A program made the translations under genes and the position numbers. Under the pieces are notes generated by a model that saw only the letters and a program-made list of their open reading frames with translations, searched no databases and was not told the DNA's origin. Shown piece by piece: positions 4,801 to 64,000 of a DNA stretch of 64,000 bases. Positions within the stretch are counted from its first letter, which is position 1. Each line of letters opens with the position of its first letter. The stretch comes from Tubiluchus corallicola (taxonomy: Eukaryota; Priapulida; Priapulimorpha; Priapulimorphida; Tubiluchidae): assembly GCA_030141605.1 (NCBI GenBank), contig JAQGDQ010000070.1, positions 62,001-126,000 on the forward strand. Reading direction: 5' to 3'.

Positions 4801-5192
4801 AATAGAAGGATATCGCCAGAGCACATGCTGACATTGTGAAATGCCACGTTGGGACAATGCAGGTTTTCACCTACAGTGGATGACCAGGAATGGGATACAA
4901 AGTAAAACTGGATAAGGACTGATAGCATCAATAGCGTATAGCAAGGCTAGAAAGAAAATTATTTATATATGATGAAGAAATGACATTATTAATTAAAACA
5001 TAACTTTATGATCATTTTAGGGTTATACAGTCTACAAACGTTTGGAGTATAACTGTCTAACTGATGCTCACTTTGCCTGTTTATTTAAAAAATAATTTTG
5101 TTGTTTCTAAAATTCAATTGTTTTGATATCAGATGTTACTTGAAAGAGATGGATCGTATGAATAGGAATAGTTATTACTCAACTATTTGAAG
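1837..5192. other. Intergenic DNA with no recognisable feature
   Basis: I read this as AT-rich non-coding DNA. The one ORF over 60 codons (4511-4711, plus) has no recognisable motif and no splice context. Old, unclassifiable repeat fragments may be present. Confidence 0.4.
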
Positions 5193-6188
5193 CACTAATA
5201 CATTTTAGTGGTTTCTTACTATAAATGTGTAACTCGTTTTTACTGTAAGCTACAAGTACAGTCACTAATACATTTTAGTGGTTTCTTACTATAAATGTCT
5301 AACTCGTTTTTTACTGTAACTTGCAAGTAGAGTCACTAATACATTTTAGTGGTTTCTTACTATAAATGTGTAACTCGTTTTTTACTGTAAGCTACAAGTA
5401 CTGTCACTATTACATTTTAGTGGTTTCTCACTATAAACGTGTAACTCGTTTTTTACTGTAAGCTGTAAGTACAGTCACTAATACATTTTAGTGGTTTCTT
5501 ACTACAAATGTGTAACTCGTTTTTTACTGTAAGCTACAAGTACAGTCACTAATACATTTTAGTGGTTTCTTACTATAAATGTGTAACTCGTTTTTTACTG
5601 TAAGCTGCACGTACAGTCACTAATACATTTTAGTGGTTTCTTACTATAAATGTGTAACTCGTTTTTTACTGTAAGCTGCAAGTACAGTCACTAATGCATT
5701 TTAGTGGTTTTTTACTATAAATGTGTAACTCGTTTTTTACTGTAAGCTGCAAGTACAGTCACTAATACATTTTAGTGGTTTCTTACTATAAATGTGTAAC
5801 TCGTTTTTACTGTAAGCTACAAGTACAGTCACTAATACATTTTAGTGGTTTCTTACTATAAATGTGTAACTCGTTTTTTACTGTAACTTGCAAGTACAGT
5901 CACTAATACATTTTAGTGGTTTCTTACTATAAATGTGTAACTCGTTTTTTACTGTAAGCTACAAGTACAGTCACTAATACATTTTAGTGGTTTCTTACTA
6001 TAAATGTGTAACTCGTTTTTTACTGTAAGCTACAAGTACAGTCACTATTACATTTTAGTGGTTTCTCACTATAAATGTGTAACTCGTTTTTTACTGTAAG
6101 CTGCAAGTACAGTCACTAATACATTTTAGTGGTTTCTTGCCATAAATGTGTAACTCGTTTTTTACTGTAAACTGCAAGTACAGTCACT
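5193..6188. repeat. 71-bp minisatellite, about 14 copies
   Basis: Fourteen head-to-tail copies of a 71-base unit (two copies are 70 because of a shorter T run) start at 5193, 5263, 5334, 5405, 5476 and so on to 6114, with a partial CACT at 6185. Copies differ by only a few substitutions. Each unit holds two palindromes, CACTAA...TTAGTG and ACTGTA...TACAGT, separated by a conserved GTGTAACTCGTTTT stretch. There is no long ORF. Variation is not concentrated between fixed repeats, so this is not a CRISPR-type array. Confidence 0.93.
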
Positions 6189-9100
6189 GTAACCGCATAA
6201 TGCCAGAATGAGTCGCACCGGTAATGGGTCAATTTTTGAGACCCATTTTCAACACTTGCTGTAATCAAGTCTTAATTTCTACTACCTCCCCTTGAGCTCT
6301 TGAGCTCTTTCACACCAGCCCATCACAAACACTGGTCCCACACAGTTCATACATAACACTTTCATCACACTGGGAACAAGAGTACTAGAAGTACTAGAAA
6401 TGATTCGTTCATCGATCCATCCGTCTATCCCTTTGTTCGTCTATCCATGAAGCCATCCATCCAGTTACACTTTGATTTGTATTCATTCGCCTGTTTACTC
6501 AATCGCTCATCTCTACAGTGTTCATCCATTTTGTAGTGAAATTTGAAATCACTGCCCCTCTTCAACAACTGGAATGAATGAAAATTATTCTCCCTGCTAC
6601 AATGACTGTAAATACAGACAGCGCTGTGAGTATTCTAATTGCATTTCTTCCTCTTATGAATGCTCTCTGGTCGGATTCGGAAGTAGCCTGCCCGTCTGCG
6701 CATTATCGATCTTTCCCCGAAATTCCACAGCCATTATTCCCTGTGTAAGCAGTCAGCTACAAGCAAGGCGCTGTCCTGAATTCAATCTCTAGCTTGCGAC
6801 CTCGTGTTTGTCGCAAGCGTCTAGCAGATGATTACCATGCAGTATTCTGTAGAAGTACCACAAAGAAAAGAGCGACCAGCCTAAGCCTTGATGAAACCCA
6901 AATTCTCAAGATGGTCGACTACTGTTCAGTTTTTATCATTCACTAGATAAAGACTAAGTCAACATTTATCGACCGTCGCTCTTTATAACATACAACATTA
7001 CCACTAACAGCTATTTAGCGACGTACAATACAACAAGAACAGACAACAAACAAGTACGGATGCACACACAAACAACGAATAGCACATAGGGTATATGTGC
7101 TATTATTATTATTATTATTATTATAGTGTATTATTATATTTTACTATTGGATGTGAATAAAATAAATAAATAAAAATAAATATCCTGGCGTTTGCAGCCG
7201 AACTGAAGACTGGGTGGCTACAATTCGAAATCCAATTCGCTAGACCACACCCCTGAGTCAAAACAAAAGGACTTCGCTTCTCTTGTGTTAACAAACTTTT
7301 AGTTTACATTTTTTGTTCTGTATGATTGTGTTGCCTTATCGTGAACCGGAAAAAACATAAGTACGGACAAACCACCCATGCAAGAACATATCAGGGTCAG
7401 GTTGGACACGAAATGTAGCTGTGGTAGTTGCTGGTTACTGGAAGTTTATATTTTACTTTTTATGTGAGTTCATTAACTGCAAAACCATCATTTATTGCCT
7501 TCAAGGCACATGATTCATTGACTTATAAATACGTTTATAAAGTTATGGTATGTGAGGAATAGAAGTTTGTTAACATTTTGATGTAGATTAATTTCTCTTC
7601 AATTCTTATTTTGCATTTCAAATTAAAACCAGCTGACAGCCAGAGAAACAATTTACCGAGAACACACCATTTTTTGTGGTTTTATGAACTAGCTTTGCAT
7701 TATTCTAGCTAGCCCTTGAGGTAGACTGAATAATTTAGAACACACACACTACACTGAAAATGGACCAAGACTAGTTGGTGTGCAAATAAGCATCGCAAAA
7801 GCTCAGAACACCACACAAACATGAATTTCTCATTGTTTCTTTGATTTCATTTCCATTAACTGCCTTTAACTGCGCAGCTTACACCTGGACACTTTCTATT
7901 TTCCGAACAACCACCGCCACCGTCGATACACCAATCACACTAAACTGCCTTTCATGCATTCACTGGTGCATATTACTTTTGCAGCATCATCTATTTAAAG
8001 ATGTAATCTCCCTGCATTGTCAAACTCTGAAATTACACGCACCTCAAATTTCGTGATTCCTTTATGATACTGCAGAAAATTTTGCAGATAATTATTACTT
8101 ACAAGTTCGACGCGCATCTTCCCATGCAATAATGCGGATAATTATGGTGTCCATAAAAGTGTAGAGATGAGGCAAAGATCTCCAAACTTTGTACAGAAGA
8201 GTACGTATCTATTACGTTAATACGTAATAATACATATTACGTTAAGCCATGCATAATAAACAGACAAGAGGGGTAGCGAATCATCAATTTGTCCGTCATC
8301 ATATGGCTACAGTAGTAGAATATGTGAGGCGGTTTAAATCATTTTACATGCGCAAAAGTGGCATTGAGAATATAGACCAGAATTTGCTTGTATATAGTAA
8401 AAAGGATATATTAAAGCAATTTTTAAAGCACTGTTGTGCAATAGCAGAAACAGAATCAAATCTCAAATTGCTCCTAAAACTTTGGTTAAACCCTACACAC
8501 TTAGTTACAAGTGTAAATAGGAAGACGGAATCCATATTAGGGATCCACCCTATGCACTTAGCTACAGATGCAAATAGGAAGAAGGATTTTAATTTTCTTT
8601 TAGACTGAGGCAATAATAAAGCTTTTTTTAAATACGCTAATCTAATACAAGATGCCACGTGTCCTGCTCCGCATCTTCTTTTTGACTCCTCATTGGTTTG
8701 GCCAACAGAAAAGATCAAGTTTTGTAAACGCACTACCAGGAGAACTGCACAGTCTTTATATAAACGGAGACCGATGTGTTAAAAATTTTGTTGGACTGGT
8801 ACAAGACCCATTTTTAATGAAAACATTTAATTAGTAATAAACATTTAAGACTATTTTATACATGTATTATCGATTTTCTTGCACGTTTTGTATCCAACTC
8901 TAACAAAATCAACTTGACTTATATATTATAGACTGTTTCGATAATTAACCTGATTCTAAAATTAGTTTTGGTTAATTATATGGTTGGTTAAATTATGTTT
9001 ATTATTATCATTTACTACGTATTTTTGGATACTTTGTTACAAAGTTTACTGTAGTAATTGTTAAAATTTACTTTCAGTCTTAAATCTATTCCATTGATGT

Positions 9101-28476: not shown

Positions 28477-36064
<7,588 letters not shown>

Positions 36065-36955
36065 CTTTGTCTTCGGTCGAAAAAAGAAACTCGGAATCCT
36101 CCACCAGTCGTCCAGTTGTTATACAGGTATGTTTTTAGTCAACACGTTGAATTTGGTCGTCTGCAATGCTTGGAGGTAATTCTTTTGATTACTTTAATCT
36201 AATGAAATTTGTATAACTTAAGAATTTTCACTCATTAACAAGTCTTCCAAGCAAGAGTCGTTTTCCATACAAAAAGTCGAGTTCCTTGATTCAAATTTGA
36301 CCGTCATAACGTGCGACACCATAAAAACAAGCCGTTGCGTTTGGCTTATAATTTTATGGCTGATTTAACGTATGAAATAAATTTTTGAATATTATTTTTA
36401 CTTTTCAGATTTCTTGCATGTAATTTGACCCTCAGTTTTACACAGCAGTATTTTAGGGCGGATCTAGAACTAGATGTTATAAAACGGGAGTGTTTTTACT
36501 GCTGAATGTTGCATTATAGTTTAGAGATAACTGATTTGCAAAACAGTAATTATTTTTGTATAATGTTCCCCAGATATAACATGACACTATAATAAACTTA
36601 ATCTGTTTTTGTAATATTACTGAAAAAAATAAGTATATTTTTATCTCAAAATCAAATTTATACCTCTGATTTTTTAATTCCATTTTTAATTGCTTTCTGG
36701 GAGTACCTGTATATTATACCTATGGTAATTAAAAAGAATGTGATGATGTATTGAAAAATAATGTTTAATTTCTTTATGATCTGCCGGTCAATTATCAACA
36801 CGGAAAACTGTTTTTCATGTCACTTTTATAGCAAAATAGAAAGCTGCTGACAAGTTTCACGGTCTGAAATTGTCATAGAAAATAATTATTTTGTTTTTTC
36901 CAGAAGTTGCTAAAGCTATAGTCACTTTTAACACCATTCGAGAGGAAGTGGTGTT
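36065..36955. promoter_or_regulatory. Divergent intergenic region, likely shared promoter of CTCF and the TJAP1-like gene
   Basis: The two start codons are 891 bases apart, head to head. On the plus strand CAG|GTATGT at 36,124-36,132 is a consensus donor and TTGTTTTTTCCAG ending at 36,903 is a strong acceptor. A CTCF 5' UTR intron of about 777 bases is therefore likely, putting the CTCF transcription start upstream of 36,126, close to the TJAP1-like start. No TATA box is obvious. The shared-promoter call is inference. Confidence 0.5.
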
Positions 36956-39766
36956 ATGGAGGCAGCAGGTGATGCAAACACAGTTGCTCAGCCGGCACTC
37001 AGCGACATTCAGTCTTACCTTGATACTTTCAATAAGGAGATTGATCCTGCCCAAATCACCGGTCGAGAGATGATGTACGTACAAACGTCAGTTTCAGATG
37101 ATAATAGCCCACAAGTTTTTGTGGCTACAACGGATAATGCTGGTCCAGCACAGCAGCAAGTTATAATGGCTTCAACAATGGATGGAAGCAATGAACATCA
37201 TCTTTATGTTGCTTCTTCAGAGGTAGATACACAGCCTGGTCAACAGCAGGTGCTGTACGTAGCACCCGAAAACGATGAGGGAATTTCAGGTTCTGAAATG
37301 GAAAATCAACATGTTGTCTTGGTGACAACAGATGAACAGGGAAACTTGCAGTATACAACTGCTGATGGTGCCGATTTTTTTCCTGATGGTGAACCTCGGC
37401 AACAAGAACATGCAACTACTGCATTTCAAGAGGAAATGATGGGTAAGGTATTGAAACAAGAAACTGATAGCACTACTGCTGCTTCATCACAGTCTGCTGA
37501 AAATGTGCAGGAACTTGTTCAGATCAACGTACCAAACTCAGACAATATGATCTTACAGCAAGATGGCAATGCTGCTCTCGAACAAGATGAACCAGTGCCG
37601 ACCCTGGAGTCAGCTTCTGCCTTGGACACAGAACAAGTCGTCAACGACTTACAGGCCGGAGAAAATCAGGTCGAACCTGTTGAAACTAATCAGTTAATTC
37701 AAATTGAAGGAGAGCGGGAGCCTGATGCCATGCAAATGGTGACGCGATTGGCCGAACAGGCCACTGGAGACAACATGATTTTGAATTCAGGCAACTCTTA
37801 CCAGACTGTTACTATTGTTCCTTCCGACAGCAATCCCGAGGAAGTGAGCTATGTTCTTATTGTGTCTCAGCCTGATGACAAAGACAAGGATTTAAGCGTG
37901 TATGACTTTAATGATGAAGGTCAGCAGATTACGCAGCAGCTGGATACTGAAGGTAAGAAATTCATTCGTGTGACACCAAGGAAAGGTAAACTTGCCGTCG
38001 GGCAGGCGGCTCACATGTGCAATTACTGCAACTATACAAGTCCGAAGCGCTACCTACTCGCCCGACATATGAAGTCGCATTCGGAAGAACGTCCTCATAA
38101 GTGTAACATATGCGAGCGTGGTTTTAAAACTGTAGCTTCTTTGCAGAATCATTTGAACACGCATACGGGCACGAAACCCCACCAGTGTAAAGAATGCACT
38201 AGTGCATTTACCACGTCTGGTGAACTGGTTAGACATGTACGGTACAAGCATACACATGAAAAGCCCCATAAATGCACAGAGTGCGACTATTGTAGCGTGG
38301 AATTAAGCAAGCTGAAGAGACACATGCGATGTCACACTGGGGAACGGCCATACCAGTGTCCACATTGCACTTATGCGAGTCCGGACACTTATAAACTGAA
38401 GCGCCATCTCCGTATTCATACTGGAGAAAAACCTTATCAGTGCGACATCTGTCAAGCTAGATTCACACAAAGCAATAGTTTGAAGGCGCATCGGCTAATC
38501 CACTCTGGAAACAAGCCCGTGTACCAGTGTGAGCTGTGTCCTACTACCTGTGGACGGAAAACGGATCTTAGAATCCACATACAGAAGCTACACACAAGTG
38601 ACCAGCCAATCAAGTGCAAGCGGTGTGAGAAAGAGTTTGTCGATCGTTACACCTACAAGTTGCATGTGAAGACGCACGATGGGGAGAAATGCTTTAAGTG
38701 CGACCTGTGTCCATATGCATCATTGACACAACGCCACTTAGAGTCGCACATGTTAATCCACACTGACCAGAAGCCATTCCAGTGTGGCCACTGCGACCAG
38801 ACATTCCGCCAGAAGCAACTTCTGAAGAGACATCAGAATTTGTATCACAATCCAGACTACGTTCCTCCCCCACCAAGGGAGAAGACCCACGAATGTCCTG
38901 AGTGTCACAAAATGTTCCGCCACAAGGGAAATCTCATACGTCATCTTGCTATTCATGATCCCGAAGCCGAGCAACAAGTGCACTATCCAGCAGAAGACAT
39001 GGAAGGTGAAGAATCGGTGGATGAAGAAACATTCCAGGGAGCTGTTCAGTTGGTCGAGTCCGAGCACATTGCTCTTGGCGATGCTGATTATGATTTAGAT
39101 GCCACAGCTGATTTTCAAAATTCTTCTGGTATTGGTGTAGCAGTGACGGAAGTTGTGCAGACTGTTACAGAATCGAATAGGCGCCGTGGCCGACCACGAG
39201 TGATGAAGTTTGAGGAGCCAATAGACGACGAAGAAGAAGAGGAAGAAGCCTACGAAGCAGAAATTGACGAGGAAGGTCGTCTGATTTCCATGAAGAGAAG
39301 AAGCAGATATGATCATGATGAAGATTATAATCCCACTCCTAATAAGAAGCAACTCCGGTCAGGCCTGCCTAGTCAGGAACGGATTCCGATCGATCCTGTC
39401 GCGGAAGCGACTAAAGTGGCTTTGCAAGTACAGAAAAAGGCGGTACAAAAACAGAAGGAGATCGAGGAAGCATTTGGGTTTGATGCAGAGGAACAAGAAA
39501 ACGGGACTGAGGAAACTCAAACAGCACAGTATTTACAAATCCAGGATCCAGACAGCGGGCAGCCACAACTGATACAGGTAGTGGCATCTGGTGACCCGGA
39601 AGAGCCGACCATAGTGCAGTTAACAGAAGAACAAATGGCACAGCTCGCTGCACAGGTTGACAGTGATGATCAGACTGTACAGGTTGTTTTACAGCAAGAT
39701 GAGCCGACTCCAGAAATGGAGTCGCAGTCTATCATAGAAGTACCTGTTGTAATCATGGACCAGTGA
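36956..39766 (+). CDS. CTCF: CTCF insulator protein, 936 aa, uninterrupted coding sequence
   Basis: This is the chromatin-architecture factor that binds DNA through a zinc-finger array and stops cohesin. Residues 1-350 are acidic and Gln-rich. VYDF at about 315-318 matches the YDF motif by which vertebrate CTCF contacts cohesin SA-SCC1. Eleven C2H2 fingers fill about 353-667. The finger 2-5 blocks NHLNTHTGTKPH, TSGELVRHVRYKHTHEKP and DTYKLKRHLRIHTGEKPY are near-identical to my recollection of vertebrate CTCF. After the fingers come RRRGRPRV (an AT-hook-like motif, about 742), a long acidic stretch (EEEEEEAYEAE) and a Gln-rich tail. Finger 11 ends HLAIH, i.e. C2H2, where vertebrate finger 11 is C2HC. 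The ATG follows a 52-base 5' UTR and a splice acceptor at 36,902-36,903. The 2.8-kb frame has no intron, unlike most CTCF genes I know. Confidence 0.96.
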   Translation: MEAAGDANTVAQPALSDIQSYLDTFNKEIDPAQITGREMMYVQTSVSDDNSPQVFVATTDNAGPAQQQVIMASTMDGSNEHHLYVASSEVDTQPGQQQVLYVAPENDEGISGSEMENQHVVLVTTDEQGNLQYTTADGADFFPDGEPRQQEHATTAFQEEMMGKVLKQETDSTTAASSQSAENVQELVQINVPNSDNMILQQDGNAALEQDEPVPTLESASALDTEQVVNDLQAGENQVEPVETNQLIQIEGEREPDAMQMVTRLAEQATGDNMILNSGNSYQTVTIVPSDSNPEEVSYVLIVSQPDDKDKDLSVYDFNDEGQQITQQLDTEGKKFIRVTPRKGKLAVGQAAHMCNYCNYTSPKRYLLARHMKSHSEERPHKCNICERGFKTVASLQNHLNTHTGTKPHQCKECTSAFTTSGELVRHVRYKHTHEKPHKCTECDYCSVELSKLKRHMRCHTGERPYQCPHCTYASPDTYKLKRHLRIHTGEKPYQCDICQARFTQSNSLKAHRLIHSGNKPVYQCELCPTTCGRKTDLRIHIQKLHTSDQPIKCKRCEKEFVDRYTYKLHVKTHDGEKCFKCDLCPYASLTQRHLESHMLIHTDQKPFQCGHCDQTFRQKQLLKRHQNLYHNPDYVPPPPREKTHECPECHKMFRHKGNLIRHLAIHDPEAEQQVHYPAEDMEGEESVDEETFQGAVQLVESEHIALGDADYDLDATADFQNSSGIGVAVTEVVQTVTESNRRRGRPRVMKFEEPIDDEEEEEEAYEAEIDEEGRLISMKRRSRYDHDEDYNPTPNKKQLRSGLPSQERIPIDPVAEATKVALQVQKKAVQKQKEIEEAFGFDAEEQENGTEETQTAQYLQIQDPDSGQPQLIQVVASGDPEEPTIVQLTEEQMAQLAAQVDSDDQTVQVVLQQDEPTPEMESQSIIEVPVVIMDQ

Positions 39767-51909: not shown

Positions 51910-52630
51910 CAGTGGTTCCCAACCTTTTCCTTGCCAAGTACCCCTTCTAAATGTGGCGATCTTCAGCGTACCCCCACCTGATATTTTTCAACAAATCGTT
52001 TGAAAAACCAGTTTCCAGAAAACAACGATTAATTTTATCGACATTTTTTTATTTTAACTTTTTTTGAAAACATGAATTTTATCACTGATTATTAAGAAAT
52101 ACGTAATTTGAACAACTTTCTCGAATATGAAAACACCAATACAAGGAAACGCGATCTTCACAGCAGTCATAATTAATGCACACGCTGTTCTTGATGATTA
52201 TCAACAAGTTTTTTGATATCAGGTTTAATTGTTGATATTGCGACTCGCATGTCGCTCCTCAAATCCAAACGGTTTCTTACCTTCGTCTTCAAATGTAGCA
52301 TTGCACTGAAGCCTAGCTCACATTTGTATGTTGTCACAAATGGAACCAACACCTCGAAAGCCAAATACAGCACAAACAAAGCAACAAAATATAAGCTTTT
52401 CGTGAGCGGGTAAAAGTATTTTCTAGCGCACTGCGCAGGAATGATATTGTTTATGAAATATTGCCTAACCTGTAGAAAGAATATCGCGATGCTGCAACTT
52501 GGTGTATTTTACCCTTTTCACCGGCTACAGAAAGAAAAAAATGTGTCGATCTGACACACCTTCTGCGTACCCCTGGCATTGCTGTTGCGTACCCCCAGGG
52601 GGTACCCGTACTCCCGGTTGGGAACCACTG
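51910..52630. mobile_element. hAT transposon remnant with perfect target duplication
   Basis: The left end CAGTGGTTCCCAACC and the right end GGTTGGGAACCACTG are perfect inverted repeats over 15 bases. They are flanked by identical octamers CTTTAAAC (51,902-51,909 and 52,631-52,638), diagnostic of hAT insertion. A GTACCCC-rich subterminal region occurs at both ends. It is an internally deleted copy of an autonomous element, since it keeps a piece of transposase (separate entry). Confidence 0.95.
52173..52379 (-). pseudogene. hAT transposase, C-terminal fragment
   Basis: A 68-codon open stretch includes VTTYKCELGFSAMLHLKTK followed by RNRLDLRSDMRVAIS and IKPDIKKL. This is the order of the conserved C-terminal dimerisation region of Charlie/ZBED-type hAT transposases as I recall it (TTYxCExGFSxLxxLKxKxRxRL). 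The rest of the transposase, including the catalytic core, is missing from the 721-bp element. Confidence 0.8.
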
Positions 52631-53187
52631 CTTTAAACACACAAATGATACCAAACATTTCCCCTTGTATAGTGTAAAAATGTATAAACAAAGTTTATAC
52701 TTATAAACTTTGTTTATAAACTTACTTTACTTATAAACTTTGTATGTGCATTAAATTATGTTAAAAGTACCTACAGTGCTTTCTACATGCAAAAGTCAAA
52801 TGTTACGAGGAAAAGCTAGAGTGGAAATTGCAAAAAATAGCACAATCCATCACAAACATTTCCAAGTTTTTTGGTTGCAAATGCGGGCATATGGCATCGA
52901 CAAAGCCTACTGTAGCTCTAAAATTCACTAGTAGAATCTTTCTGATCTTGCTAACAGAAAATTTTAAAACCCGTTTCTTTCACTTTTTCTATTTCGTAGT
53001 ATTCACAGATTTAATACACTCAGTGCAATAAAGGTCTGCAAGTTGTTGCAAATATCGATTAAAAAGGTATTTAATTGGTAAGGTGATTAATTCGATATAC
53101 TGAGCTATCATATTCACCATCAAATAATTTGCCATTTATCATCAGTTGATGTACAACATATAAAAATGCACAAGTTAATCTTTAAGG

Positions 53188-54669
53188 TCAGTAATTATCA
53201 TAGTGCTGTAGTCTGTATAATAAAGCATCACCCTTGTTTGTGCCAACGGCATAGTAACCACTATTGAGAGAAATGTCCTGGCACAAAGGAATACGCAACG
53301 CCTGATCTTTCATGTCTGGGAAATTGGAGAAAACAGTCATGGAAGGAAAGTGCACCATCTTCACAGCCTTCTCTTTTTCTGAAGATATCATGGTCATAAG
53401 TTCGGAAGTACAGTTGAATTTAAGATCGGTTACCGGAGTGGTCATGTTCAGCAGAACTTTCTTAGGTTTTGGAAATGAGGATGACACACAGTCGGTTTGG
53501 TCGTAGATATTTACGATGCCGCTATTGGACCCGCATGCAATAAACTGATCATTAGGTGAACAGGCTATGGCCGTGCCTTGCAAACAGCCTTCATCAACAA
53601 ATTTGTGAACGCAGGCGAGTGAATTCACATCCCAAACATACACCTTGCCTTCGTCACCACTTGAGTAAAGGGTATCACCGCTATGGCTGAAACACATGCT
53701 ACTGACATTGCCGTTCATCTTAATCGTTTTTATCAACTCTTTAGTTCTTGCGGAAAGCAAATGCATTCGCCCGTAAGTTCCATAGAACACAATAAATTTC
53801 CCGTCGGGCGAGACTACGAATCTTCTCATCACGTTTTCCTCTGTAGCTTTAATGTATTTGACACGCACGATCTTTCCTACCATCATGTTATAGTAATAAA
53901 AATATGCAAAATTTGAGCCAACAATGAACTCTTCTCCATTTGCTGCAAAACGTGCACAATGGATTGGAAACCTTTCAAAATAGATGCTTTCTATCCTGGG
54001 ATTATTCTTCCCGTCCACCTGGTACAAGCTGACGCGCAGATCAAAACCGGCAGTGAGAATGACTTGTGCAGATGGATGAAACTGCAGGCTCTTCACTCTT
54101 CCTGGAGACGTTGCGACACTTTCGTAGTTTGCATTTTTGCACTTTTTCACAGAAATGATGCCTTTAGGTAAAGTGCTAAACGAGCGAAGATACGATCCTG
54201 TTTGCTGTAGCAGACCCGTTTCTTCGGATTTTTCAGCCCTAGCAATATCCAGATTAGCCCACTTTGGTGTACCCGATATATTTTCAAACTGGGCTTTTCT
54301 GTTGCTTGTTCGGTCATCGTTCACTGCACTTTTCTGCCGCACATTAATATTAACGCTATTGTGTGCATCGTCATCATCTTCCCAAACGGGAACTCTTTGA
54401 GGAAGGGCATCCAATACGTCACTTCCACCTAACTCACTCTCAGTTTCTCCTGCCTTTTTGCTAGAACTTCCCAGATGTTGACTTTCACCCAAGCTCGTCA
54501 GCAATTCTGCACTGTCTCCAAAGACGAGTTTCTCAAATATTTTTTCTTCTTCATCTTTAGGTCTGCCTGATGGTTTCAAAGTTTTTGATTTTTTTCTTGG
54601 AGACTCACCATCTTCAGCTTCTTTGTGCTCAGAATGTTTACGTTCTACTGTTTTACTTTTACGTAGCAT
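53188..54669 (-). CDS. UTP18: UTP18, WD40 protein of the U3 small-subunit processome, 493 aa, intronless
   Basis: A nucleolar factor for early 18S rRNA processing. The first ATG (54,669-54,667) gives MLRKSKTVERK; the frame stays open upstream but without another ATG before POLE4's end. The N-terminal half is Lys/Ser/Glu-rich and disordered, with the family motif FEKLVFGD at about 45-52 and an acidic VPVWEDDDD near 93. From about 187 on there are WD40 blades: GRVKSLQFHPSAQVILTAGF, NVSSMCFSHSGDTLYSSGDE followed by GKVYVWDV, and ACSPNDQFIACGSNSG. The end GTNKGDALLYRLQHY is the UTP18 C-terminal signature as I recall it. The length is near the usual 500-560. The start lies only 29 bases after the POLE4 stop codon. 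Confidence 0.94.
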   Translation of the reverse strand: MLRKSKTVERKHSEHKEAEDGESPRKKSKTLKPSGRPKDEEEKIFEKLVFGDSAELLTSLGESQHLGSSSKKAGETESELGGSDVLDALPQRVPVWEDDDDAHNSVNINVRQKSAVNDDRTSNRKAQFENISGTPKWANLDIARAEKSEETGLLQQTGSYLRSFSTLPKGIISVKKCKNANYESVATSPGRVKSLQFHPSAQVILTAGFDLRVSLYQVDGKNNPRIESIYFERFPIHCARFAANGEEFIVGSNFAYFYYYNMMVGKIVRVKYIKATEENVMRRFVVSPDGKFIVFYGTYGRMHLLSARTKELIKTIKMNGNVSSMCFSHSGDTLYSSGDEGKVYVWDVNSLACVHKFVDEGCLQGTAIACSPNDQFIACGSNSGIVNIYDQTDCVSSSFPKPKKVLLNMTTPVTDLKFNCTSELMTMISSEKEKAVKMVHFPSMTVFSNFPDMKDQALRIPLCQDISLNSGYYAVGTNKGDALLYRLQHYDNY

Positions 54670-54698
54670 TTTGCTGTTCAATCACTAAATTTCAATCT
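54670..54698 (-). promoter_or_regulatory. 29-nt POLE4-UTP18 intercistronic gap with possible splice acceptors
   Basis: On the minus strand the gap reads from just after the POLE4 TGA to the base before the UTP18 ATG. It contains AAATTTAG and GATTGAACAG, either of which could serve as an acceptor for trans-splicing or for alternative cis-splicing. The polypyrimidine content is weak. There is no room for a separate promoter or polyadenylation signal. Confidence 0.6.
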
Positions 54699-57600
54699 TC
54701 AAAATTCCCCTGTACCTTCTAGAAATGCAAGAGCATCAATTGACTGCATAGTTGACTCTGCAAAGTACATAAAATAATTAGTATGTTCAATTTAATGATA
54801 AAACAAAAAATTAAAAAACAACATATCAAAAATTAAGCAATCTATCTAATCATATTTTCTCTGTGATTGCCGTATCTGCAAATGGTCAACATTAAAAAAA
54901 CTCATCGTTGATTCAACATTAATCTAATAAAAGTGATAACAGTGATAAAAAGTAATCCACGCGAGATTTGCATATGGGGAAATTTTGTTCATTTTTATTG
55001 AGTTATTGTAATTATGATCAATGCCTTTGAATTAAAAATATTAAATATTCGAAGATAACTGTTTCACCTCCATTGCTTTTCTTAAATAAGTACAAGTCTG
55101 GACTCCAATTGTCAATCTCCTCATGCAGTCATACACGTAATTTTTTGTGCTTTAACTATCTGCCTATTTATTTTACCTCAGATCATCAAAAATTTACATT
55201 ATTATGATATATTATGACTCCATTATACATTCGCTTGCTTATGTCTAAGAATTATGCTTGTGTTATAAAGTAAATTTCAGTTGCCATTGTTATTATGTTT
55301 CTGTTGTCAGATTTTTATTTCAGTTCTTATTTCAGTTATTTTCAGTTTGATTTTTTTATATTATGCACTTACTATTACTGTGTATGAATTGTACTAACAC
55401 GTTATAAACATATCAATTTAATGTCATTCGTAACAATTTAGTTTTTATTATAAGCAGTACTAACACTAATACACTGTAGCATAGCGCCTATAAAAAATGT
55501 TCATCACTAACCAAAGGGCAGCTGACTAGATGACCAATTGGTCTTTCACTGCCCTTTCTTCACATTTTTGTTACCAAATTAATTGTATTATAACTGTGCG
55601 TGTGTTGAAAGATAAATAAAAGATTATTATTATTATTATTATATTATTATTACAATGTGCATAATCAAAATTTCAAGGTTAATGCCGCCTCCATTATTCC
55701 ATTTAAACAACTTGTAATTGGAGCTATCGGTCAGATTTTTACCACGCGCTTTAGTCAGCTAAAGAACTAAAAAACTGACACTACAAAACGCTCTTCATTC
55801 AACTATATTGGAAACTGGGAAACTGGAAAATATAGGAAATAGGTCCATAACAGACTTTTGTCTTTGTGTTGTGCAGGTAAATCAATTTTTGCAAACTGAC
55901 AACTGCATTAAAATCTTTTTTGCTATCATCGATCAGGAGCCTGCTCTGATATGACATACCCTATCCTCATTCTCAGCATTAATTACTTACCAAAATCACG
56001 TTTTTGCAAAGTTTTCCGCTTACTTCTGGCTAAGTATTCATTTGCTTCCTTTGCAAAACTAGCAACGAACAGTTCCTGGAAGAAAAATTCTGTTCTATAA
56101 CAAATCTGCTTTGATAAAATTATGAATGAATGAAAAATTTATTAGCATTACATACTACTTCATTTCAACTGTTGAATAACATAATACATTAAAAATTCAT
56201 AAAATAAATTATTTTAAAATACACTAAAAATTAATTCACCATAAAAATAACAATTTAAAATATAAGTCATAAGTTATTTATTGAAGTGCCTGGCAGACAT
56301 ATTACGTATCCAAATGTTTTTTATTTTTTACACAAATTAAAGAAATTATATAATTTTAGATCATGAATGTCAGATAGTCAAATACATGTAGTAAGATGCC
56401 ATTCAATTTTAGCTCAAAAGGTTAAATTAGAAACATTAATCATCTGTCAAATCTAGACTATCTAGCAAAGCTTTTCACCTGCACTGTGGAGTATTAAATG
56501 CCAATAAACAGGCATCTTAGCAATTGTCACTACTGTGACAAGCACTCGCTGAGAACATAATATCAGTTATTGTTGCTGTTTACTCGTTGCATACTGCTTT
56601 GCTTGACACTGATGTGCACAGAATTTTCAATGATTTATACAAAACAGAAGCTTCCTTTGCATGTATTTATTTTTTAATGACACAATAAGTTTTGCCTGCA
56701 TTACGACAGTCTAAAAGGTTAACATTACTAATGTTTGTAAACAAAAGCCTAAATGAGGGTGTAAATGTTATGTCATGTCACGTGATCAGTCACATGCTGG
56801 CTTTTCGATTGGCGGACTAAATGAAACGTATCTGTAGCGGTTGAAATATTTTGCAAAAATTGGAGTAAACATGAAAACGTAAGTACTTTATTCGCATAAG
56901 ATTATATTTGGGTGATATAATGTTTCAATGTGAGTTTTTTGAAATTTACTTATACTACTCTTTCCTTGTCCTTTAAATAGCAATTTTTTGTAGCTTTACT
57001 TTCTTTAGATGCTAATGCACAAACAGGAATACAAAGAAAAAACTGCAAACTTGCAAAATACAATTCACTAAACTAATACTGATTTTACAACTCTGTTAGT
57101 AACTACGACTACTGGGCAAGTAATTAGATAAAGAGAAATAACACAATTAACGAGAAATAACTTAATTTTAACAATTTTTTTGCACGAAAATATGGCACTT
57201 GAGGACCAAACTCACAAAATTGTGACCTTAGACTACCTTACTGTTTACATTCCTTGTTTGTTTTGTTTCGTATTTTAAAACGTTTGTTTTCCAGTTGTAA
57301 AACAGGATTAATAAGTGTACGTTTTGGTACTCTTTACAAGCCATTTCAAGCACAGGCTTGCTATTGAAGATTGCTGTAAACATGATGCCAATGTTTTTTG
57401 TCAAAGTAATCAGTTATTTTCTGCTTCTTGCAGTCACTGCATATTTATCCAATCTGTGCGGCTAATCTAATAGATACTTCAAAATACTGCCACTCGTATA
57501 TAAAGTATAAAAACTGGACGAAGACAATTTTATTTTTTGATTTCAAAATTATGATTATTTATTCTCAAATATGGTAATAATTAGGGATGCACCGGATCTG

Positions 57601-59228
57601 GATCCTGATATCTAGTAATTTTCGTTGGATCATGCACCGCTTGTATTTCTATTTTTATGCATAAAGCTACAGACTGCACACTGATTGTGAAAAAAATAGG
57701 CATAACTGTTTAATTAGCCGAATAGTCTTAACTTTTTTAAAGAACTCGAAGGATTTCTATTAATATTTTTAGGAATTTACGTAAGTAGCGCAAGCGATAT
57801 AGCAATCTTCACGCTGTGGTTCCTTGAAGCAAATAGCGCAAAAATAGCACCATTGCACCAAAAATGTCTGCTAAAAGTTTAGAGCCATTTACTTCCAAGA
57901 GTAAAAGCATAGATGGCATTTTTTGAATGTAAACCAAGTGCGGATCAAGTTTTCAAAATTATAGTACATCAATGCTTGCAGTAGTTCCACTTAAAATTAC
58001 TCAGTGACCCTGAAAATTGACAAACGATGCAACCATATGAATAAAAGGCTACACAAATGAAATACTGTTTCCATTAATTTGTAGGCCGTACAGATTCGTA
58101 TCCGATCCGGAACCGGTAACAGTGAATCCGGTGCATGCCTATTAATAATAGGTGTATAAAAACAGAAGAAAGTTTGGCTTAAAACTGAAAATTGGAGCAC
58201 AAGTAGACGCATTAGTGCTGTTAATTTTTGAATGACTTCAATAGTTGCCCACACAGTGGCACTTCTTGGATTGGAAGCATTTTTCGTTAGTTATTTTCCG
58301 GAAACATTTTAGGCACTCATAATGTGCTCATCTGTGTAGGTACTTAATTACAAATGTAGCAATTTACTAAGTGTCACCTGGTTAACACATGCCTACAATA
58401 CATAGCTACTTTCTTTCCATGTTTTGGTTTCAAAAAGACTGTAAATTGTAATCTTGTTAATAAAATTCAAAATCTGAGATGGTCACTGGAAAGTTTTTAA
58501 AAATCTAGGTGTGTTGTCAATACATAATTTAAAGTATACTATAAATGTTACAATTTGTGTAAGTGATGCATTGTTAACTGCAAATTTCAACACAGAAAAA
58601 ATACAAAGTTTCATTAATAAGGAGATATAGTTAACATGGAAAGCTTAGTTTACCAGCTACAGGGACCGGTGTAGTGACTTCTGTATCACATTCCTTGAAC
58701 ACATTTATCAGAATTTTCCAGAGGACCAGCTTTAAATTTGCACCGTGACAGTGGTCATCAAATTCAGCTCGTCCCTGGCTGCTACCGCCCATCATGGTGC
58801 AAGTTCTTCATTAATTTAGGCATGTGAAATATTACTTTACTATTCAAATATTTTTCTATGACCCAGGACAAAGTACGTAAACTTACAGTAGCCTTTCCAA
58901 TGAGGAAGACAGCTTCTTGGCTGGCTAATGTGACATCTGGATCTTGCTTTATTATAAATTTAACGCGTGATAAGGGAAACCTATTCGTCGTTTCCAAACA
59001 AGGCTGTGCTTCTTTTCCACCAACTTCAACTGCGTTACTGTCTATCGCAACGTGGCCGGCATTAACTAACGGCTCTGCAGCAAACTCAGTGTTATTTTCC
59101 TCAATGTTCCGATTTGTAACAGTTTCTGATTTGTCACTGTCAGTTTTATCTGTATTGTTTTCAATGTCAGACTGCTGAGAATTTGAAACATGAATTTCAG
59201 CAGAAACAATAATTTTCCCACCATCCAT
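54699..59228 (-). CDS. POLE4: POLE4, histone-fold subunit of DNA polymerase epsilon, 161 aa, three exons
   Basis: A small nuclear subunit of the leading-strand replicase, whose histone fold pairs with POLE3. Exons (minus) are 59228-58887, 56075-55991 and 54757-54699, 486 bases in phase, GT-AG. Residues 1-80 are an acidic, Asn/Thr-rich tail, longer than in vertebrates (whole protein 117 aa). The histone fold runs from FPLSRVKFIIKQDPDVTLAS through QEAVFLIGKAT (exon 1) and ELFVASFAKEANEYLARSKR with KTLQKRDF (exon 2) to SIDALAFLEGT (exon 3). This matches LARVKxLVKxDPDVTLAxQEA...RKTLQRxDLDNAI...FAFLEGTLD of the family. Intron 1 (2.8 kb) contains a hAT MITE and two candidate cryptic exons. Intron 2 contains a LINE tail. 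The stop is 29 bases from UTP18. Confidence 0.93.
55513..55656 (+). repeat. 3' tail of a non-LTR-type repeat, same family as 1702
   Basis: AAAGGGCAG and CTGCCCTTT flank GACCAATTGGTC, giving a stronger two-part hairpin than the copy at 1702. A short AT-rich stretch follows, ending in a TTA microsatellite. It lies in POLE4 intron 2, antisense to the gene. Confidence 0.6.
56871..56878 (+). other. Candidate cryptic first exon and promoter, antisense in POLE4 intron 1
   Basis: ATGAAAAC is followed by a consensus donor (GTAAGTA). About 60-95 bases upstream are TCACGTGA (an E-box palindrome at 56,778-56,785) and an inverted CCAAT box (ATTGG at 56,808). A strong acceptor (TTCTTGCAG at about 57,434) lies downstream, but splicing to it or to the one at 57,293 gives only 14 to 26 codons. 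It could be a non-coding or micropeptide transcript, or chance. Confidence 0.2.
57582..58141. mobile_element. hAT MITE, 560 bp, in POLE4 intron 1
   Basis: The left end TAGGGATGCACCGGAT and the reverse complement of the right end (TAGGCATGCACCGGAT) match except at one base. Flanking octamers GTAATAAT (57,574-57,581) and TTAATAAT (58,142-58,149) agree at 7 of 8, an aged hAT-type duplication. TAGGGRTGCACCGAT ends are a common hAT signature. No transposase sequence is seen. Confidence 0.9.
58654..58795 (-). CDS. Candidate 47-codon first exon nested in POLE4 intron 1, family not recognised
   Basis: On the minus strand a start in good context (TGCACCATGATGG) opens 47 codons, MMGGSSQGRAEFDDHCHGA through LKLVLWKILINVFKECD, ending at a donor (GCTG|GTAAAC). 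An in-frame stop lies five codons upstream, so it is not an internal exon of POLE4. Composition looks protein-like, but I found no following exon and do not recognise the sequence. Confidence 0.3.
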
Positions 59229-62011: not shown

Positions 62012-64000
62012 TTACACTGGAAGTAAAAGTATCACTACCGTTCTACATAGCAAGTTTTCACTGTTTGTAATTCTAGTATTCAGGCTGTAAATGCTTTTCC
62101 TGAGAATAACATCAAAGTACACTAATTTATGCGTCACAGAAATGTCCCTAGTACTGTGATCGAACTGGTAATTGAAAAATTTGCGCATTGATTTATTATG
62201 AGCAACCTTAAGTTTGTTCAGATTATAATTATGAAAGTGCTGCCAAGTGGCTATACAGTAGAAGCTATTACAATAAGTATTGAATAGATGTGTTTTTACA
62301 GCATTGGTGCAATAGTAAAATTTACGGCATAGCTTATTTGCTCGAGAGTAATAAATGCCTACTTCTCGTATGATATCTAGATCGTCTCTGTTGTCCCTAG
62401 AAATGATGTGGCCAAGATGTTTTTCATTATCACAACGCTCAATAACATTATCACAAGGCACAGATCAGGCTATCTTAACTGTTCCGAACTCAAAGTTGCT
62501 GATATTGGAAGGCGTTATAGTCAGAAGCTTAGTTTTGTCAACATTAATTAAAATATCAAATTTTGCCGCATAATCAACATTTATATCACATAACTTCTTC
62601 AGAGCAGTTGCCGTGGTACTTAACAGGCAGATATCGTCAGCGTATGTAAAATGATTGTAATACATATCTGCAATTTGACATCCAAGATTACTAGAAGCTA
62701 GATTTTCACCAAGTTCTCTAAAGTAGAAGTTAAACAGAAGAGGGGACATCTTTTCTCCCTGCCGTACACAGTTGCCAACTTTAAAAAATCTCAGAGTTAT
62801 AGTTACCTCATCTCACTAGCATGCCTTGATGGGTGTAATAAAAAACAAGTAAACGAACAACAACATTTGGCATCTCAGTTTCAATGAGTTTTAAAAACAG
62901 TTTAAAATAATTAATTCTATCGAAGGCTTTGGAGGCGTCTAAAAACATTATATGTACAGTACTCTGGCGGTCTATATAACATTCTACTACTTCTTTTAAG
63001 ATCCTGTAATACGTAACTCAGTACCCATATTCTCCACATAACCAAACTAGTTGGGTGTGGCAGGTAAACAATCTGCATAACGAGTCAATACAACAATTTC
63101 TTAAAGTTTTCTGAAATTATTTCTGTCTGTTATATCTCTATTTTTGTCTTTAATAAGTCGCACAATTACTGATAACATTAGTGAGTTTTGTAAGAAACGA
63201 TGAGTGATACAAGAGTTATAAAACAATGCGAACAAAACTGGTAACACGTGAGAGGTATGTCTAAAATGCTCTGACTTTAGACTGTCTGGTCCAGCTTACC
63301 TATTTAATGCTAGCTTTTTAATGGCTTGCTGTACCTCAGCTCCCGTAAATTTGTTAATTTCATTGACGTTTCCAGGCAGTGCTTCGTGTAATTTATTGGC
63401 AAGATTGCTGTTATCAACAGCAATTGCGAGTTAAGGAGATTCTGATAATGATCACCCCACATGTCACAAATTGTCCTTTCGTCTGCTACGTGGCCAATTT
63501 TTGATGGAAAATGGCATTTTTGAATTAGTTTCTTTTTTGACCTGAGCCCAGAACTGATATGAGATGCAGTTTATAAGTCTATATGCAATTTTGTTCTTGG
63601 CGCTTACATTCGCGCAAAGCTTGTTTAAATTGTGCGCGTGCACGCACTTACTGGCTAAATGCCCAGAACGAGGTTTGCCATTCAAGTACCAGTAGCATTG
63701 GCGCAGAAACTTATGCTTATCAGCAACAAGCTCATTCCAGCCAGGAATTATTGTCTTTTTAGTTTTGTTGTTCTCAGGTTGTTTGCTGCCTGGAATAGTG
63801 CAATTTGCAGCATCCATACTAACTGAGTATCCATAATATATTGTCATAGTATTCTCTAAGCTGCAATTTATGATCGGTGTTGTGGCAGTTTATATCTTCG
63901 CGAAGAAGTGCGTGATACCGTACTGCAAGTTTAGACAACAAATCTTGCGTCATTAAAGTGTAATCGAACAGTTGGTTGCTGCTAGCTTTATCCCAATCTA
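62012..64000 (-). pseudogene. Decayed LINE with reverse transcriptase domain, runs off the window
   Basis: Reading the minus strand from 64,000 down, pieces appear in LINE order. A linker segment has IPGWNELV, DKHKFLRQCYWYLNGKPRSG and SKCVHAHNLNKLCA (about 63,500-63,750). Reverse transcriptase motif A LDASKAFDRINYF lies near 62,920-62,950. VRQGEKMSPLLFNFYFREL lies near 62,740. The catalytic FTYADDI is near 62,640, and DNEKHLGHIISRD near 62,400. Stops and frameshifts (for example around 63,420 and 62,464) break the frame. The PGWNxxV...GKPRSG linker is one I associate with an animal APE-type LINE group. It is inactive as written. Confidence 0.88.

Follow-up and report, generated by a model that had tools for sequence, protein, structure and literature searches.

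A POLE4-type gene and an intronless UTP18 gene, 29 nt apart on one strand, form a possible dicistronic locus in the priapulid Tubiluchus corallicola

How is a gene expressed when its start codon lies 29 nt behind the stop codon of another gene? The question is raised by a stretch of 64,000 nucleotides of Tubiluchus corallicola (the window: contig JAQGDQ010000070.1, positions 62,001 to 126,000), in which a three-exon gene of POLE4 type is followed on the minus strand by an intronless UTP18 gene. A preliminary description had reported the 29-nt distance, the common strand, a donor at 55990 and the potential acceptors TTTAG and AACAG; the coordinates confirm the spacing, and the donor and both acceptors were found at the positions given. 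It had concluded that the gap leaves no space for a promoter, so that UTP18 must come from a dicistronic, a trans-spliced or an exon-skipped RNA. We favour, at a probability of roughly 45%, a dicistronic-type locus with a shared 3' end, in which UTP18 would be made mainly from a shorter RNA started inside POLE4. The locus is composed as follows.

58887..59228, minus strand: POLE4 exon 1, 342 nt; ATG at 59228, donor GT at 58886-58885
56076..58886, minus strand: POLE4 intron 1, 2811 nt
55991..56075, minus strand: POLE4 exon 2, 85 nt
54758..55990, minus strand: POLE4 intron 2, 1233 nt; possible location of a UTP18 start site
55094..55652, no strand assigned: repeat inside POLE4 intron 2, at intron positions of about 339-897
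54699..54757, minus strand: POLE4 exon 3, coding part, 59 nt; stop TGA at 54701-54699
54670..54698, minus strand: intercistronic gap, 29 nt; weak TTTAG and AACAG acceptors, no AATAAA or ATTAAA
53188..54669, minus strand: UTP18 coding sequence, a single exon of 493 aa; ATG at 54669-54667, stop at 53190-53188
53010..53075, minus strand: ATTAAA hexamers nearest to UTP18 on its 3' side (starts at 53075 and 53015); judged by pattern only, a candidate for the shared 3' end

The UTP18 frame is intact over all 493 aa, and the three POLE4 exons splice in silico to an open frame of 161 aa, with an in-frame TGA 12 nt 5' of the POLE4 ATG. Thus, as expected of a dicistronic locus, two unrelated proteins are encoded on the same strand by intact frames with little space between them. 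Random placement would produce a 29-nt gap with a probability of the order of 0.2%, a rough figure for a single window chosen post hoc; it uses the distance of ~13.4 kb to the nearest recognised coding sequence beyond UTP18 (a zinc-finger open reading frame ending at 39766), a stretch that was not exhaustively searched for genes. Readthrough of the POLE4 stop into a POLE4-UTP18 fusion was considered and is ruled out, both by the frame offset (UTP18 begins at mRNA position 515, in frame 2) and by a TGA of the UTP18 frame itself, upstream of its ATG at 54684-54682.

Judged by its sequence matches, the downstream gene is UTP18, a WD40 protein of the small-subunit processome. Its product scores 393 bits against human UTP18 (PDB 7mq8) over residues 37-492, followed by the yeast protein (109 bits), the uncharacterised chain 5ic7_A (104) and a Chaetomium-type Utp18 (103), while the best-scoring other named WD40 chain among the best 60 of 158 matches reaches 78 bits. 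The upstream product has an NF-YC-type histone fold (Pfam CBFD_NFYB_HMF, 58.2 bits with a cut-off of 21.4), and among solved structures its best match is 5y26_B (47.9 bits), followed by an NF-YC chimera (39.9) and CHRAC-16 (25.2). The chain 5y26_B is deposited as 'Putative transcription factor C16C4.22'; we take this chain for Dpb3 of fission yeast, which corresponds to POLE4, and we also take the C-terminal 'AFLEGT' to resemble human POLE4. The name POLE4 is given because of these two assignments.

Both proteins were searched for in the assembly to which the window belongs (343,548,820 bases in 2344 contigs; the window is C1525:62001-126000). UTP18 gave one match, at this locus (10 candidates scored). 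POLE4 gave five matching pieces (6 candidates), three of which are its own exons; the remaining pair score low (33.5 and 26.6 bits) and come from other contigs, leaving the strong match only here. The assembly may be incomplete, since a search for COX1 found nothing (1 candidate scored). Because UTP18 is the sole copy found and its frame is intact, the gene is presumably expressed somehow.

We then considered where the POLE4 RNA could end. A scan of exon 3 and the gap for AATAAA, ATTAAA, AGTAAA and TATAAA found none of them, and the nearest downstream ATTAAA begins about 110 nt past the UTP18 stop. As expected of a dicistronic locus, no canonical hexamer separates the two frames. Since exon 3 and the gap contain neither AATAAA nor ATTAAA, the POLE4 RNA probably continues through UTP18 to a common 3' end. 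A shared dicistronic RNA is the natural part of the earlier proposal, and it fits the intact frames, the absent hexamer and the single UTP18. That a promoter has no room cannot be concluded from the short gap, and "must" is too strong: UTP18 transcription may start within POLE4 intron 2 or exon 3, or from a spliced non-coding exon.

In the arrangement that we favour, transcription of POLE4 would start near 59.2-59.5 kb. After the splicing of its three exons the RNA would extend across the intronless UTP18 as far as the common 3' end, so that the full-length POLE4 mRNA would bear the UTP18 frame as a trailer. A shorter RNA ending at this same site would be the main source of UTP18 protein. It would begin inside POLE4, either in the 336 nt of intron 2 next to exon 3, in exon 3 itself or in a non-coding exon that is joined to exon 3 at its strong acceptor. 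The long RNA would perhaps supply a little UTP18 protein. Eight AUGs precede that of UTP18 in the spliced long RNA, none of them in the UTP18 frame, and the first, that of POLE4, has a G at both -3 and +4; few ribosomes should therefore reach UTP18 by scanning, and a shorter RNA would escape most of these upstream AUGs.

Several observations weigh against this arrangement. Neither the CpG scan nor the motif scan gave a positive sign of an internal UTP18 promoter. The CpG observed-to-expected ratio is 1.03 upstream of POLE4 (60500-59229; 34 observed, 32.9 expected), only 0.65 in intron 2, and 0.59 over intron 2, exon 3 and the gap together (17 CpGs observed against 28.7 expected). The inserted repeat, which makes up 559 of the 1233 nt of intron 2, contains the single TATAWA (55360) and the two YCTTTY matches (55623, 55612) of this stretch. 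Besides, any UTP18 RNA begun upstream of the two exon 3 AUGs (mRNA positions 435 and 448) would have these in its way, and the missing canonical hexamers leave room for variant poly(A) signals.

How much the CpG contrast says depends on whether high CpG marks promoters here. A ratio of 1.2 was also found in the 500-nt bin 36000-36499, 5' of the zinc-finger frame. If the mark holds, POLE4 has a promoter and UTP18 none, which is mildly against an internal start and therefore mildly favours an obligate dicistronic RNA. Counts are small, and the mark is shaky because a transposon-like stretch (1.27 at 52500-52001) and bins within the UTP18 coding sequence (up to 1.03) are high as well. The core-promoter motif scan of 55990-54670 is uninformative: besides the three matches in the repeat, it gave two initiator-like matches, at 55899 and 55778, and nothing else of the set. 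A sigma-70 promoter scan is a bacterial model and carries no information for an animal locus.

Next to UTP18, the intron 2 repeat seems to be a fairly recent insertion. In a repeat search of the assembly (40 of 567 candidates scored), 49 pieces are listed, one of which is the copy in the window. Of the 48 others, 39 are 87-95% identical, which suggests the recent date; two reach 80% and seven are short. Between repeat and exon 3, intron 2 has 336 nt that match nothing else among the pieces listed. A UTP18 RNA might begin in this remainder or be joined at the strong exon-3 acceptor. Two further elements were seen nearby. Inside POLE4 intron 1, positions 57577-58146 carry 21-nt inverted arms, 86% complementary and 528 nt apart, like a small terminal-repeat transposon. 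Beyond UTP18, the transposon-like stretch at 52173-52660 (minus strand), which resembles part of a hAT-type DNA transposon, contains the frame 52176-52508, for which there is no Pfam match.

It is quite possible, if tentative, that the long POLE4-UTP18 mRNA is instead the sole source of UTP18 protein, through reinitiation across the 29-nt gap after termination or through internal ribosome entry. The FlyBase survey (PMC4528330) counts 159 dicistronic pairs, 45 of them exclusively dicistronic, and gives stop-to-start distances of -34 to 319 nt for polycistronic-only loci; the 29-nt spacing is ordinary, being inside this range. According to the same source, downstream genes with an RNA of their own usually use an alternative promoter. 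Obligate dicistronic expression also agrees with the lack of a promoter-like CpG rise 5' of UTP18 and with a layout immune to nonsense-mediated decay, as the long RNA has no exon junction 3' of the POLE4 stop unless the UTP18 trailer is spliced. Translation speaks against it. The eight upstream AUGs stand in its way, and the upstream frame has 161 codons, while PMC4705651 relates that frames longer than 55 codons are predicted, from HIV-1 tat mRNA, to block reinitiation, and names a counter-example too. The reinitiation motif TGGGA was not found near the POLE4 stop, only a GGGA whose start lies 11 nt before the stop codon ends. Folding of RNA at the junction gave no excess over shuffles either (z +1.18; 176 of 200 shuffles fold equally well or better).

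Two separate RNAs would also account for the two frames, with POLE4 ending early, at a variant poly(A) signal in the gap region or in another terminal exon within intron 2, and UTP18 having a 5' untranslated region of its own that overlaps POLE4. We consider this distinctly unlikely. Intron 2 contains seven AATAAA, ATTAAA or TATAAA hexamers, which make early ends possible; five of them (55449, 55422, 55360, 55319 and 55172) belong to the inserted repeat, and an end in intron 2 would delete the C terminus encoded by exon 3, which aligns with solved relatives to about residue 156.

That the pair is an operon whose RNA is separated by trans-splicing of a spliced leader to TTTAG or AACAG is very improbable. 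The AGs lie 15 and 4 nt 5' of the UTP18 ATG, and Ciona operons are often without any intercistronic region (PMC7986045). Scored with an acceptor weight table composed from general knowledge, AACAG falls at the 61.5th and TTTAG at the 33.6th percentile among 491 AGs; the two POLE4 acceptors reach the 98.0th and 98.6th, the latter being that of exon 3. The good acceptor with a pyrimidine tract that such an operon should show just before the downstream ATG was thus not found, and POLE4 is without a canonical poly(A) hexamer. An Rfam scan of the window yielded no family at or above its gathering score, Rfam including few spliced leaders. A tRNA scan gave 0. The operon put forward in the preliminary description consequently gains no positive support. 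Its third route, splicing of the exon 2 donor at 55990 to AACAG or TTTAG to give a UTP18 mRNA without exon 3, has donor and AGs in place and is extremely improbable, as it is disfavoured by the same weak acceptors and by the retained POLE4 start. From that start the frame would run into UTP18 and end 25 nt (AACAG) or 11 nt (TTTAG) beyond the A of its ATG, a layout that seems less favourable to translation of UTP18 than the dicistronic one.

More unusual than the 29-nt gap is that UTP18 occupies one exon, whereas the Utp21 domain of a partner protein (209 profile positions) is split into at least four pieces at 19839-28004 of C1245. For the Utp12 domain (107 positions) no match covers all, and on C1209 two pieces are separated by 3 kb. 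That UTP18 is intronless, the sole copy and right behind the POLE4 stop suggests that it may have arisen by retroposition or RNA-mediated intron loss. No intron-bearing parent was found in the assembly (10 candidates scored), no A-tract was seen on reading the sequence, and a search for flanking direct repeats of at least 14 nt reported none. Old retroposition events lose the parental copy, the A-tract and the target-site duplication. Retrogenes within a host transcription unit resemble this locus in placing an intronless coding sequence in the last exon of the host; they differ in that UTP18 shows no intron-bearing second copy, A-tract or direct repeat of 14 nt or longer. The most far-reaching version, in which UTP18 is expressed only as a second cistron and translated efficiently after the 161-codon POLE4 frame, the retroposed copy replaced an intron-bearing parent and the arrangement was kept clade-wide, strikes us as unlikely.

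Among known systems the closest are dicistronic pairs of Drosophila curated by FlyBase (such as Adh/Adhr, stoned A/B and Mocs2/CG42503). They likewise combine two full-length frames of the same orientation, in many cases only tens of nucleotides from each other, share a transcript and need no spliced leader. At POLE4-UTP18 the shared transcript is inferred, and the downstream gene is intronless. The fly names of UTP18 and POLE4 are presumably wcd and Mes4. Neither occurs in the main text of PMC4528330. Human RPP14/HsHTD2, GDF1/CERS1 and SNURF/SNRPN also have two functional frames per mRNA (PMC4705651), some in a layout immune to nonsense-mediated decay; those are other genes with documented mRNAs, whereas POLE4-UTP18 is known from sequence only. 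Operons of tunicates and nematodes with spliced leaders share the very short intergenic distance and differ in that POLE4-UTP18 is without a canonical poly(A) hexamer, a good acceptor or a known leader. Our literature searches found no publication on the POLE4-UTP18 pair. Relatives of the pair in viral contigs amounted to two pattern stretches, none confirmed. In a plasmid collection 19 records matched at less than 60% identity, none over more than 80% of the query, and the five matches listed are WD40-type bacterial proteins or carry NB-ARC/caspase-family annotations.

The arrangement is uncommon but of an already known and well-documented kind, and its general lesson is modest. If truly dicistronic, the locus would make an essential nucleolar protein rely on the promoter of another gene. 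Reinitiation downstream of a long frame may be needed as well, and simple scanning hardly explains that. The locus might also show how an intronless copy, lying in the transcript of a host gene, supplanted its parent. Annotators are warned that gene predictors may merge the two genes or lose one of them.

Elsewhere in the window, the zinc-finger frame at 36932-39766 (plus strand) runs stop to stop over 944 aa with many C2H2 fingers, is single-exon over this stretch and in our view resembles CTCF. Positions 62012-63889 (minus strand) are probably a broken long interspersed nuclear element, with RVT_1 in the frame 62465-62812 and adjoining open frames without Pfam matches. A minisatellite with a 71-nt period occupies 5122-6272 (13 overlapping 300-nt reference copies), and long AG and CA runs occur at other places. 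Across the assembly, four tandem TTAGGG units gave 181 matches (reversed control 0) and five TTAGG units 318 (control 150), so that both array types occur. Finally, contigs C1245, C1667 and C1474 each show equal or near-equal matches in opposite orientation on the one contig, as if they contained inverted duplications or mis-joined haplotypes.

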